From Tissierellia bacterium (lineage in GTDB: Bacteria; Bacillota; Clostridia; Tissierellales; Tissierellaceae): a DNA stretch of 52,993 bases. The position numbers were made by a program, and so were the translations under genes. Location: assembly GCA_012735245.1 (NCBI GenBank), contig JAAYHU010000080.1, positions 1-52,993 on the forward strand, read 5' to 3'. Numbering within the stretch: the first letter of the stretch is position 1; each line of letters opens with the position of its first letter. Below the pieces are notes generated by a model. The model worked only from the letters and a program-made list of their open reading frames with translations. It was not told where the DNA came from and made no database searches. Positions 46,684 to 52,993 of the stretch are shown in pieces.

Positions 46684-47064
46684 TTACTCATCTACCTTTT
46701 CTGCTTCCTCTGTCTCTACCAATTCATCATGGCAGTCACAGCAACATTCTTCATCATCACAATAATCATCGAAATCATCAAAGTCAAAATCATCGTCATA
46801 GTCATAATAGTCTTCAAAGTCATCATCATAGTCATCATCAGAATCATAAATTTCATCTTCTACATCAGCTAAGTCTTCATCGATAAAGTTTACGTACTCT
46901 TCTAATTCCATTTGATTTTCAATGGTTTCCTCTAAAACATCAGCAAAATCTTCTAAGACTTCCACTATCTCTAATAGCAACTTTCCTTCCTTTGATGTTC
47001 CATCAATACCAAGACCATCAGCTAAACCCTTTAAATAGGAAACTCTTTGCATTAAAAAATCCAT
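46684..47064 (-). CDS. CD1247 N-terminal-domain-like protein with polyacidic Asp/Tyr region and C-terminal Cys cluster
   Basis: MQRVSYLKGLADGLGIDGTSKEGKLLLEIVEVLEDFADVLEE N-domain; DSDDDYDDDFEDYYDYDDDFDFDDFDDYCDDEECCCDCHDE. Confidence 0.7.
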   Translation of the reverse strand: MDFLMQRVSYLKGLADGLGIDGTSKEGKLLLEIVEVLEDFADVLEETIENQMELEEYVNFIDEDLADVEDEIYDSDDDYDDDFEDYYDYDDDFDFDDFDDYCDDEECCCDCHDELVETEEAEKVDE

Positions 47065-48693: not shown

Positions 48694-48960
48694 CTATTTA
48701 TGTCTTGGATTATCTCTAACGACTTCAATTGCCTTAGTAATTTCAGTTATAATATCAGTACTAAATTGAGGTTTTAGGCTATCTGCCTTTGAAAACACAT
48801 AACCTTTTTCAGTAACTACGTATTTAGGCTTTAAATTGTTTAATGCAATGGCAGCAATGTCCAATTTGCATTTTTCACATTTACAAATATCATCCATATC
48901 CTTTAACACCTTATCTACTAAATACAGGACTTCATCTTTCAATAAATTACGAAGTTCCAT
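48694..48960 (-). CDS. comFB: Late competence development protein ComFB family
   Basis: LVDKVLKDMDDICKCEKCKLDIAAIALNNLKPKYVVTEKGYVF; start placed at the ATG after GGGGG (ORF track 48978). Confidence 0.87.
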   Translation of the reverse strand: MELRNLLKDEVLYLVDKVLKDMDDICKCEKCKLDIAAIALNNLKPKYVVTEKGYVFSKADSLKPQFSTDIITEITKAIEVVRDNPRHK

Positions 48961-48974
48961 AATAAACCCCCTTT

Positions 48975-49985
48975 TCAATTACTCTTAAACAATAGTATAT
49001 TAGGTTCGATAAATCCTGGTATATACAATCCATATCTATAGATGTTTTCACTATTATATGATACATCTATACTATCCTCATTTAAATCCTTAGAACTTAT
49101 TATCAATCCGTTTATCTTTGGCTTTTCATTGGATTTTACTATTATATCTCCATCCCTTAATATAATAATACCATTAAAGTTAAATTTGTTGAACACGGTT
49201 ATATTGCCTTCTACAAATATTAATCCATTTAGTTCCATAGGGCTATCTAAGCCTTCTTCATTACCTAAAATTAAGTCTACGTCATTTTCTCCATATTTCC
49301 TTATGATTAAAACTATGTTATTGTTACCAATATGCTCTATATATGGTTCCACCATGGTCTCTCGATATGCGTATAGATAGGAGTTGTTTTCATCAATTTG
49401 ATTTAAAATAAGGCTTTGAAAATTGGAAAATTGGCCTCCATAAGTATTTGATGGTAAATCCTTAAAATCTATATTTATTTCTTCAAATATTCTGTTTAAT
49501 AGCATGTGAAAATCTTCTGTAGAATTTTCTAAAGTAGATGGACTTAAAATAGGACTGCCTAACTCAAAAAAATCATTTACCAGTGTGCCAGAGGCAGTAA
49601 TATTTGTTTTTATGCCTTTGTAATCCGATTCAGAACTTAAGTTAAATTCCATCCGGTTATTATTCTCTCTTAGGGTGAGTTTTACCTTAGAAGGGGACTC
49701 AAATTCATCTATATCCCTATTATCTAATATTATATCCTTTGTAGTAGTCCTTTTTCCCCTAAAAACCTCTACTACAAATGGATAAAATTCTTCATCATAA
49801 TATTTATCAAATAATATCATATAGATTTTTCCCTCTGCTAAGTAGTAGGACTGTAAATTATTTCTTGTATTTATTGATATATGATATTCCACCTTAGATT
49901 CATAAACTAAATATGATGTTATTATCATAAGAATAGACATGACTAATAAAGCGTAAATTGATATATACCCTTCTCTTTTAATCAT
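48975..49985 (-). CDS. PilX/GspK-like pilus assembly protein
   Basis: N-term KREGYISIYALLVMSILMIITSYLVYESK...YYLAEGKIYMI, hydrophobic pilin-type helix without E5. Confidence 0.6.
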   Translation of the reverse strand: MIKREGYISIYALLVMSILMIITSYLVYESKVEYHISINTRNNLQSYYLAEGKIYMILFDKYYDEEFYPFVVEVFRGKRTTTKDIILDNRDIDEFESPSKVKLTLRENNNRMEFNLSSESDYKGIKTNITASGTLVNDFFELGSPILSPSTLENSTEDFHMLLNRIFEEINIDFKDLPSNTYGGQFSNFQSLILNQIDENNSYLYAYRETMVEPYIEHIGNNNIVLIIRKYGENDVDLILGNEEGLDSPMELNGLIFVEGNITVFNKFNFNGIIILRDGDIIVKSNEKPKINGLIISSKDLNEDSIDVSYNSENIYRYGLYIPGFIEPNILLFKSN

Positions 49986-50002: not shown

Positions 50003-50584
50003 TCAATTGTCTATAGGACACCTGACGTAATAATTAGATTTTAGGTTAAGTTCTTGTCCACTATCAGATAATAATTGGAAGTCTAAATATATCATTTTAT
50101 TTTCTATATCTAAGCTTGTACCCTTAATGCTATGGATAAATTCACTAATTTCATTATGGCCTTGAAGTTGAGAATAAATTGGGTAGGTATTATTCTTTGC
50201 AAGGCCAGAAATCCTAATTAACTTGTCATCCTTCCTATAATAAGTTGTAAATCTATTAAATATTTCATCTTCTTTGTTGACGATTACAAAACCTACATTT
50301 TCACGATAATATCCATTTAAACCACTTATCTTACTAGATGGTATAATCTTTTCCGCTGATTTTACCTCATCTTTTATGTATTCAATGGCATATCTGCCAT
50401 TTAACATCAATTCATCTATTTCATTACTCAAGACAGAAACATGTTTTGAGAACCTTAGGAGGCTAGATATGGATAATATCAAAATAGAGGATAGGCCCAG
50501 GGCCAGTACTAGTTCAATTAAGGTAAAGCCTTTATTTCTTTGGAAGATAAGCTTTAAGTTCCACACTATCTGACTTACCCCCAT
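50003..50584 (-). CDS. Prepilin-type N-terminal cleavage/methylation domain protein (PilW/GspJ-like)
   Basis: RNKGFTLIELVLALGLSSILILSISSLLRF; alternative GTG start near 50566 preceded by GGGGG. Confidence 0.85.
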   Translation of the reverse strand: MGVSQIVWNLKLIFQRNKGFTLIELVLALGLSSILILSISSLLRFSKHVSVLSNEIDELMLNGRYAIEYIKDEVKSAEKIIPSSKISGLNGYYRENVGFVIVNKEDEIFNRFTTYYRKDDKLIRISGLAKNNTYPIYSQLQGHNEISEFIHSIKGTSLDIENKMIYLDFQLLSDSGQELNLKSNYYVRCPIDN

Positions 50585-50945
50585 CTTTATTATATACTAT
50601 AACAGCAATCTTCCATAATGAATCAGACTTATTTTCTTTTATTATCTTTATGGGATAGTCATAGCCTTCCTTATCTAGGCTTATTTCTATATAATCATTA
50701 CCTCTAAATTCTTCAATTAATTGACCTATTTCCACATCATATACAAATAATTCCTTTGAAGTCTCACAATCAAAAGCTTTGATCCTTTCCACTACCATTT
50801 CCCCTGTATAAATCATATTGTATCTTGTCTTCTGTTTAGAAAGGTTATAAAAAGCTCCATTAGCTATAGGCAGCACAGATACAGTAATTAAACCAAGTAG
50901 AAATAAACCCATTATGACTTCAATTAAAGTAAAACCCCTTTTCAT
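50532..50945 (-). CDS. Prepilin-type protein (PilV/GspI-like)
   Basis: MKRGFTLIEVIMGLFLLGLITVSVLPI. Confidence 0.88.
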   Translation of the reverse strand: MKRGFTLIEVIMGLFLLGLITVSVLPIANGAFYNLSKQKTRYNMIYTGEMVVERIKAFDCETSKELFVYDVEIGQLIEEFRGNDYIEISLDKEGYDYPIKIIKENKSDSLWKIAVIVYNKDGGKSDSVELKAYLPKK

Positions 50946-50953
50946 TGTACCCC

Positions 50954-51418
50954 CTATTTTCCATTAAAATAGATGTTTACTTTACCAGTGGCTGGTGTAA
51001 TGGTTATTTCAATATTTTGCCCCTTCTTGTTAGTCAGTTTTATGGTACCAGCCTTATTAGGTGTACCAGTAGGAGAAAATCTTAAAGAGCTGCTGAAATT
51101 ATTGCTAATAATCTTTATTCCATTTTCAAACTTCACATTTCTTATGGTTTCATTCTCAGTGCCATGCCTTATTATTTGATAGCTATTATTTCTAACGTTT
51201 ACATTTAGGGTATAATAAGTATTTTCTATAATAGCACTATTTCTGGCATTTATTATATCTCTTCTAAAAGTCATTAGCTCTCTCTTTTCCAGATTGATGA
51301 AAATACTTCTTATACTTGGGATAGAAATAGAAAAAACAATAGCAAATAAGGCTAAGACTGCTAGCAACTCCAGTAGTGTATAGCCTAATTTGCTACCTTT
51401 TAGTTTTCTGATAATCAT
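50954..51418 (-). CDS. Prepilin-type protein (GspH/FimT-like)
   Basis: SKLGYTLLELLAVLALFAIVFSISIPSIRSIFINLEKRELMTFRRDIINARNSAI. Confidence 0.87.
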   Translation of the reverse strand: MIIRKLKGSKLGYTLLELLAVLALFAIVFSISIPSIRSIFINLEKRELMTFRRDIINARNSAIIENTYYTLNVNVRNNSYQIIRHGTENETIRNVKFENGIKIISNNFSSSLRFSPTGTPNKAGTIKLTNKKGQNIEITITPATGKVNIYFNGK

Positions 51419-52993
51419 TTTATTAAATCATAGAGCAGGTATGAAAATTCTGCCCTAGTTATATTATTGTTCATACTGTCAAAACTATTAGATCTTACTT
51501 TTTTATCATAGATTATTTTATTAGCGATGGAATCCCAAGTAAAATTACTATTTTTCAGTATTCTTCTCATGATTATCTCAACCTCTTTATATGTTATATT
51601 GTTATTTGGCCTAAAATAATTATCAGGATAACCGCTAATATATCCATGGCTTAAAGCATAACTGATTTGCTTTTCACTGAAAGCATTAAAGGTATTCCTA
51701 TCCTTAAATAAGGAAAGGTTATTTGTATCAGCAGGTAAATTCCATTGGTATGCCCTACTCAATAGAACTAAAAACTCTGCCCTAGTTATATAATTGTCTG
51801 GCCTAAAGGTTTTATCTGGGTATCCGTTGATTATACCTTTTCTAACTAAGGTCTCGATTTCATTTTTAGCCCAATGCCCCCTAATATCATAGAAGTTTAT
51901 CATTTCCTTATCTACAAGTACTGCAAAAATACTGCCATTTCCACTTAAAAGGCTTGGATGTACACTGGTAGATATCCTATTGTCTTCAATTTTAGAATTT
52001 AAATATTCCCATTTATCATTTCTTTGTATATATATTCCACCCCTATTATCACCATAGTATTCAAAGGATATTAAAATTTTCTTATCCGGGTTAAATTCCC
52101 CTGATGGGTTGACAACACTAATTCTATAGGAGTTAGATGCAAAAATATATTTATTGTCAAACCTATTGTAACTACTTACCACATCTATATTGAGTATATT
52201 CTCTCTGTAATAGGTTCCTCTATCAATTTCCACAATTAAGCTACTATCGGAACTTTGAAATCTTCCCCCATCAAGTGGCACTACAAGGGAAGTAACTTTA
52301 TTGATGGCATCTTCTTGGCTCAGCTCCTTATAGGTGTCAGTATATCCCTTGCTGTAGCCCTCCCAAAAACCATTGACAAAGTCTTCCATATATCTTTGGC
52401 CTTGATACATTAGTTTATAGTCATAGATAATGGCAGAAGCTGATGGTCTTGATCTCATCCAATCATTTGTTTTTCTATTTACATAGTCTATTCTACCTTG
52501 TTCAATACCCCTAGCTTCACCTACTACATAGCCATTTTCATAGGCAAAACTCACTTCAAGTTCTTTAACATTGTTTCTTGCCTCTCTAAAACTAGTTATA
52601 TAGGCTTCCCTATAGGCATTTTTAAATCCCTCTATAAACCCCTTAGTGTATTCTTCATTATCCCTATTAAGGGAGTATTCAGATTTAATTATACTATCTG
52701 AAGGCATATTTCTTTGATGGTCAAGGGTCCTACCTTCAAAGTAATCCTTGGCCCCAAAGATGCTGCCAACAATTTCACCAAAATAGCTGCCATCATTTCT
52801 TCCTGCTTCTATACTGTCTCTTTTGAGACCATAATGGGCATTATAGTAGGCATCTTCATATCCCTTTCTGAAATTGCTTTTAAATTCCCTAATAAAATAG
52901 GTTCTATCAATTGAGGCAAGCTTTTTTAAATCAAAAGTAGTTGTGATTTCGGAGTCCTTAGGCAGTTCTCTCAGATAGTTTGGAGATTTTCCA
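51415..52993 (-). CDS. S-layer homology domain protein with N-terminal GX3-repeat region, 5' truncated by window edge
   Basis: C-terminal SLH repeats (DIRGHWAKNEIETLVRKGIINGYPDKTFRPDNYITRAEFLVLLSRAY; HGYISGYPDNYFRPNNNITYKEVEIIMRRI). The frame stays open from the tracked Met at 52707 to the window end (GKSPNYLRELPKDSEITTTFDLKK...GRTLDHQRN-MPSDS), so the tracked start is internal. Confidence 0.88.
   Translation of the reverse strand, partial: GKSPNYLRELPKDSEITTTFDLKKLASIDRTYFIREFKSNFRKGYEDAYYNAHYGLKRDSIEAGRNDGSYFGEIVGSIFGAKDYFEGRTLDHQRNMPSDSIIKSEYSLNRDNEEYTKGFIEGFKNAYREAYITSFREARNNVKELEVSFAYENGYVVGEARGIEQGRIDYVNRKTNDWMRSRPSASAIIYDYKLMYQGQRYMEDFVNGFWEGYSKGYTDTYKELSQEDAINKVTSLVVPLDGGRFQSSDSSLIVEIDRGTYYRENILNIDVVSSYNRFDNKYIFASNSYRISVVNPSGEFNPDKKILISFEYYGDNRGGIYIQRNDKWEYLNSKIEDNRISTSVHPSLLSGNGSIFAVLVDKEMINFYDIRGHWAKNEIETLVRKGIINGYPDKTFRPDNYITRAEFLVLLSRAYQWNLPADTNNLSLFKDRNTFNAFSEKQISYALSHGYISGYPDNYFRPNNNITYKEVEIIMRRILKNSNFTWDSIANKIIYDKKVRSNSFDSMNNNITRAEFSYLLYDLIK

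Follow-up and report, generated by a model that had tools for sequence, protein, structure and literature searches.

How the type IV pili (T4P) of monoderm bacteria cross the cell wall is an unsolved question, to which an enlarged PilO has been offered as a speculative answer (Pelicic 2019, PMC6916266). Diderm type IVa pili (T4aP) rely on PilP and PilQ together with helpers that bind the wall, TsaP being one of them (PMC7545093, PMC13319060); the second of these papers, from 2026, reports a PilO-LysM protein in a few Chloroflexota and treats passage through surface layers as not understood. SLH domains bind a pyruvylated secondary cell-wall polymer, and CsaB makes that ligand (PMC6030368). The locus described here touches two open questions of the field, namely how T4P cross and grip the thick monoderm wall (PMC6916266) and how filaments exit from an S-layer (PMC13319060).

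The window, i.e. the whole stretch of 52,993 nucleotides that was analysed, is an entire contig (C183) of a fragmented genome (G000; 184 contigs, 86.89% complete). The gene at its end, named Q here (Table 1), is real and widely conserved, and apparently represents an undescribed wall component of the monoderm T4P operon; a search of the open-access literature turned up no T4P operon of Firmicutes or of Tissierella reported to contain an SLH protein. The reading frame of Q stays open up to the last base of the contig, so that the gene is 5'-truncated and the start at 52707 internal, as had been proposed from the letters of the window. The closest intact relative (L041, which is the same as L106) has 671 aa, is 67% identical and has about 144 residues more at its N-terminus; as it carries four repeats, the window copy probably lost about one and a third of them through the contig break. 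Both the missing 5' end and pilMNO were sought in the window's own assembly and are absent from it, the search returning just the window plus unrelated jelly-roll and FtsA-like matches. A PilO-type jelly roll also occurs in a 965-aa ORF of the same genome (G000:C58:6812-7291, L128; E 9e-16).

Table 1. Gene Q, its parts and the pilus genes downstream of it in the window.
Feature	Position	Strand	Basis and remarks
Q (name used here)	51415..52992	(-)	525 codons; GX3 repeats, ZU5-like domain and SLH; 5' end cut by contig end
GX3 repeat copy 2, 3' part only (linker and helix A)	52840..52992	(-)	residues 1-51; family HMM built here, i-E 4e-14
GX3 repeat copy 3	52582..52806	(-)	residues 63-137; family HMM, i-E 3e-26
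GX3 repeat copy 4	52324..52545	(-)	residues 150-223; family HMM, i-E 8e-25
Beta domain, ZU5-like fold	51913..52296	(-)	residues ~233-360; AlphaFold strands, Foldseek; no Pfam match
SLH domain 1 (contains TRAE)	51772..51894	(-)	PF00395 E 4.3e-18
SLH domain 2	51583..51708	(-)	PF00395 E 3.6e-9
Degenerate third SLH-like unit, ending ..NNNITRAEFSYLLYDLIK	51418..51561	(-)	C-terminus conserved among homologues; no Pfam SLH score
First minor pilin (GspH/ComGD-like)	50954..51418	(-)	PF12019 2.3e-6, N_methyl 1.2e-4, ComGD 9e-16
Minor pilin (ComGE-like)	50532..50945	(-)	N_methyl 1.1e-4
Minor pilin	50003..50584	(-)	N_methyl 2.2e-6
Conserved pilin-like protein, hydrophobic N-terminus, PilX/GspK position	48975..49985	(-)	synteny in homologous loci; GspK match weak
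comFB, closes conserved block	48694..48978	(-)	PF10719 1.3e-24

The sequence-only reading had described Q as an SLH-anchored surface protein with a GX3 region; both of these parts stand, although that description missed a beta domain lying between repeats and anchor and offered no function. SLH is all that Pfam finds in the window copy (PF00395, 103.8 bits, two stretches, above cut-off), a third unit being degenerate yet conserved with ITRAE. Export is predicted from the intact homologues, all of which have a hydrophobic N-terminus of signal-peptide type as judged by hydropathy, the window copy lacking its own 5' end. CsaB is encoded in the window genome (contig C19, E 1.5e-79, over cut-off). 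The predicted fold of the beta domain is ZU5-like: Foldseek ranks ankyrin and UNC5b at the top, matching their ZU5 domains with probability 1.00 and E values of 3e-4 to 1e-2, and this is the only part of Q to give confident matches in a fold search. Pfam has no sequence match to ZU5 in the window copy or in the 24 family members scanned, and no solved relative of Q was found by sequence at E <= 1. No secretin, AMIN or PilP domain was matched by Pfam among 24 Q members, nor was LysM found by Pfam in Q itself; LysM sits on the neighbouring PilO.

The regular GX3 spacing reported earlier is beyond chance. Residues 1-237 of Q contain 10 pairs of glycines at spacing 4, against a mean of 1.5 and a maximum of 6 in shuffled sequences (0 of 5000 shuffles reach 10), and there are 17 aromatic pairs at the same spacing and over the same residues (shuffle mean 5.6, with 0 of 5000 having as many). 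Four homologues of Q likewise show this enrichment. The motifs that the sequence-only reading had called types A and B do exist, but as the two halves of one repeat of about 86 residues (about 74 plus a 12-residue spacer, according to a profile from aligned copies) rather than as independent alternating modules. This repeat consists of a B helix, a linker (NxWxxxxPSDxxI.xY.L) and an A helix, and the window Q holds 2.7 copies of it. Over 99 copies, four positions of helix B that follow each other at spacing 4 are small (G/A/S, 98-100%), five positions of helix A with the same spacing are aromatic (F/Y/W, 92-100%) and each have a mostly small residue before them, and the linker consensus reads N/S-D/N-W....PSD..I...Y/F-x-L. 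An AlphaFold model of Q made with twelve aligned sequences (mean pLDDT 83.5) bears out the predicted long GX3 helices, placing helices at repeat positions (27-54, 61-85, 113-141, 147-171 and 199-229); its pTM is only 0.45, so that the arrangement of the domains relative to each other is not given by the model. The glycine ridge of one helix would pack against the aromatic ridge of the other. The helical GX3 repeat of Q is extracellular and unregistered, and its sequence rule is clear: a G/A ridge plus an F/Y ridge.

Such spacing brings to mind the deca-GX3 proteins Yae1 and Lto1, in which ten GX3 units within 40 residues mediate complex formation (PMC4523923), and a resemblance to Yae1 (PF09811) had indeed been suggested. 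That Q is a secreted member of this family is most improbable. Some Q members are matched by the Pfam model Yae1_N at E 6e-6 to 0.02, but all members scored remain under the curated cut-off (the best of ten homologues reaches 26.3 bits against 27.5), and PF09811 gives no match at E <= 1 in the window Q. The longest GX3 run is five in the window Q and six in L058, rather than ten; the repeat is a two-helix unit of 86 aa, Q is extracellular, and no Yae1-like protein was matched in structure. Membership was therefore rejected on score, run length and location, Yae1/Lto1 proteins working in Fe-S cluster delivery inside the cytosol. The two groups have a helix-packing motif in common, GX3-spaced glycines, but Yae1/Lto1 proteins are cytosolic, lack repeats with an aromatic partner helix and show neither export nor anchoring (PF09811; PMC4523923). 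Since GX3 mediates complex formation there, oligomerisation of Q through its GX3 helices is a reasonable guess.

The repeat was also seen in exported, SLH-free proteins of other Firmicutes lineages (L135:840-1784 (-), L136:1-627 (+) and L137:252-1013 (-)), the best copies scoring E 1e-22 to 1e-25 in two of the three and weaker in L137. Two of these proteins (L135 and L137) combine GX3 repeats with a Cu_amine_oxidN1 domain and pass the PF09811 cut-off (33.8 and 29.1). A gene for a small double-LysM protein adjoins the repeat gene in L135 and L136, and no pilus genes were seen flanking the repeat genes of L135-L137.

Intact relatives of Q are about 500-950 aa long and consist of a signal-type N-terminus, 2-6 repeats, the beta domain and a C-terminal SLH region of about three units. 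Orthologues are found in 29 of 60 relatives and in some other families of the class, and of 219 genomes sampled from the order, 52 have one with a strong score; in a 398-genome sample of the phylum, matches beyond the order are partial or weak only. A search of genome contigs with a narrow C-terminal alignment identified Tissierella praeacuta DSM 18095, T. simiarum, T. pigra, Soehngenia longivitae and Sedimentibacter acidaminivorans among the carriers. The Q of Tissierella sp. P1 (L063:8310-10357, also L101) is split between its ZU5-like and SLH parts into two overlapping ORFs of 494 and 200 aa, by a frameshift or a sequencing error.

A link between the GX3-SLH protein and type IV pilin operons had been suspected, and it turns out to be very strong. 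In wide loci of relatives the gene order is pilB, pilT, pilC, pilin, pilD, (further pilin-type genes), pilM, pilN, pilO-like, Q, minor pilins, comFB, aroK, aroQ and efp, the upstream part being backed by Pfam matches to T2SSE (PilB and PilT), T2SSF (PilC), N_methyl (pilin), peptidase A24 (PilD), PilM and PilN. A PilO-like gene lies immediately upstream of Q in 42 of 44 distinct loci (those with an upstream gene on the contig), at a spacing of -14 to +19 nt in nearly all loci; the two exceptions belong to one genus, with pilO three genes off. All but one of the 29 Q-bearing relatives also hold a true PilM, and the exception lies at a contig edge. The window itself displays the downstream side of the operon, both sides being seen in relatives: after comFB come aroK, aroQ and efp, named by sequence and synteny. 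Q thus almost certainly belongs to the T4P operon.

Two side observations concern the same gene neighbourhoods. At 46684-47064 (-) the window encodes a small protein, conserved after efp in relatives, that has a CCC-C cluster and a tail that is very acidic and rich in D/E/Y. One family of relatives (L112, L120, L125) appears to have PilM and PilN as a single fused protein of about 540-570 aa; a PilM-PilN fusion has been described for C. difficile.

The ComGD and ComGE scores of the minor pilins, along with the comFB that closes the block, could be taken to mean that Q is part of a DNA-uptake (competence) pilus and helps DNA to cross the wall. We consider this very unlikely, as PilT, PilM, PilN and PilO are present, which are marks of a retractable T4aP and not of a Com pseudopilus, and no DNA-binding domain was seen in Q. 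Also unlikely, though less remotely so, is a role of Q as an adhesin or accessory surface protein associated with the S-layer, which would share the operon because both serve attachment and would make no contact with the machine. SLH proteins are often adhesins, the relatives have 10-60 SLH domains per genome, and the number of repeats in Q varies from 2 to 6, as in surface stalks. Against this, the slot of Q after pilO, between the core assembly genes and the minor pilins, is kept in those 42 of 44 loci across many families, and its flanks are overlaps or gaps of a few bases, whereas more movement or turnover would be expected of an adhesin gene that is freely exchangeable. Finally, Q might act on the fibre and not on the wall, binding its shaft or the minor-pilin tip as an exit-port or stop and controlling extension, retraction or tip exposure at the S-layer. 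The position of the gene between pilO and the minor pilins would agree with this, as would the four bases (ATGA) shared in the window by the stop of Q and the ATG of the first minor pilin, and the aromatic and glycine ridges would suit extended protein contacts; but Q persists where the minor pilins downstream vary or are replaced (L051, L052, L058, L061), and we regard such a role as quite improbable.

The gene next door provides the other half of the picture. Matches of its product to PilO/T2SSM are below threshold, and LysM, a domain that binds peptidoglycan, was found by Pfam in all 17 members scanned. Its structural model runs from a membrane and coiled-coil helix through a ferredoxin-like domain and a jelly roll to LysM. 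Foldseek gives a flagellar sheath protein as the top match, and further matches are the PilO chain in the model of the Myxococcus T4aP machine and family 11 carbohydrate-binding modules (CBM11). PilO with a CBM-like jelly roll and a C-terminal LysM is exemplified by L090:4741-6171 and its homologues (A6). Judged by these domains, the PilO of this group is predicted to be a wall-binding PilO in monoderm bacteria. In L142 (5972-7464), from a genome without Q and CsaB, pilO is divided into two ORFs by a break that separates the ferredoxin-like part from the jelly roll and LysM; this may reflect decay or a fault in the assembly.

Seven collinear operons lack Q (L109, L110, L117, L121, L140, L141 and L142) while keeping pilM-N-O and the same minor pilins, with 4-56 nt between PilO and the first minor pilin. 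Pili as such therefore do not need Q. CsaB and at least 10 SLH domains are present in all 29 Q-bearing relatives; CsaB was not found in six of the seven genomes with Q-less collinear operons, and three of these that were checked (G008, G012 and G039) have no SLH domain at all. Q and CsaB, along with many SLH domains, are present in two congeners of G008 (G016 and G022) and in a member of the family of G039 (G053). There are counter-examples, G048 having CsaB and 4 SLH domains without Q, and G480 having Q with CsaB not found. On a PilM-PilN-EFP tree there are five changes of Q, CsaB going in the same direction in 3.5 of 5 random independent pairs and in the opposite one in 0.2 (median p 0.25); as five pairs cannot reach significance, the joint loss of Q and CsaB is only suggestive. 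Fisher tests over the 60 relatives (Q vs PilM, p 2e-4; Q vs CsaB, p 5e-3) ignore kinship and are not relied on. These patterns suggest that Q may be of use only to cells with an SLH-type wall.

Other types of T4P operon in SLH-rich relatives (L113, L114, L118, L122 and L123) have no Q and no LysM on PilO. Long ORFs of 955-1282 aa lie amid their minor pilins (L113:11866-14733, L118:4426-8274, also L114, L122 and L123), and the two inspected (L113 and L118) have signal-peptide-like N-termini. They are possible functional counterparts of Q.

The reading that we prefer, with moderate confidence, is that Q is a scaffold anchored in the S-layer or secondary polymer that ties or guides the pilus machine at the monoderm wall. 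It builds directly on the domain composition of Q, its operon membership and conservation, the architecture of PilO and the joint absence with the SLH system in several lineages. Q would be a dedicated wall component of the T4aP machine in monoderm bacteria of the SLH/S-layer type (Tissierellales and some relatives). Its signal peptide would export it, its SLH domains would hold it in the outer wall through the pyruvylated secondary cell-wall polymer, and its 2-6 GX3/aromatic helical-hairpin repeats and ZU5-like domain would be turned toward the machine. PilO would span from membrane to peptidoglycan and Q would cover the secondary polymer and S-layer, the two making up a wall-spanning scaffold or collar that anchors the machine, lets the fibre through and may thereby take over the wall-side job of the diderm PilP, PilQ and TsaP. 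We infer that Q touches PilO or the fibre, that its GX3 ridges mediate oligomerisation and that it has a guiding or anchoring role. A more specific form, which we put forward tentatively and hold to be rather unlikely, has the glycine and aromatic ridges joining copies of Q into a ring or sleeve, which would be fixed in the S-layer/secondary polymer and sit on a cage of PilO-LysM. If true, this would be a secretin-free T4P passage through the thick Gram-positive wall, analogous to PilQ and made of unrelated parts. As PilO (with jelly roll and LysM) and Q are two candidates present in cultivable species (Tissierella praeacuta DSM 18095, Soehngenia longivitae, Sedimentibacter acidaminivorans), the question of wall passage becomes testable.

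Among known systems, the T4aP of monoderm Firmicutes (Streptococcus sanguinis, Clostridium; PMC6916266) share PilB/T/C/D/M/N/O, the lack of a secretin and a large, non-canonical PilO whose similarity is confined to its N-terminus. The ten-protein set of S. sanguinis contains no SLH protein (PMC6916266), whereas here PilO ends in CBM-like and LysM domains and is followed by Q. The diderm T4aP helpers TsaP and FimV are likewise dedicated wall-binding accessories of a T4P machine, but they bind peptidoglycan by LysM in a secretin system (PMC7545093, PMC13319060), unlike Q with its SLH, ZU5-like and GX3 parts and with neither LysM nor secretin. The PilO-LysM of archaellated Chloroflexota is the same kind of fusion and has been proposed as a peptidoglycan bridge; it occurs in 3 genomes beside archaellum genes, and the available part of that paper mentions no Q-like SLH protein or jelly roll (PMC13319060). 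With SLH-anchored, CsaB-dependent surface proteins (PMC6030368), Q shares the C-terminal SLH domains, the signal-peptide-like N-terminus and a csaB gene in the genome, but its passenger is no known enzyme or adhesin and its gene is fixed in a pilus operon.
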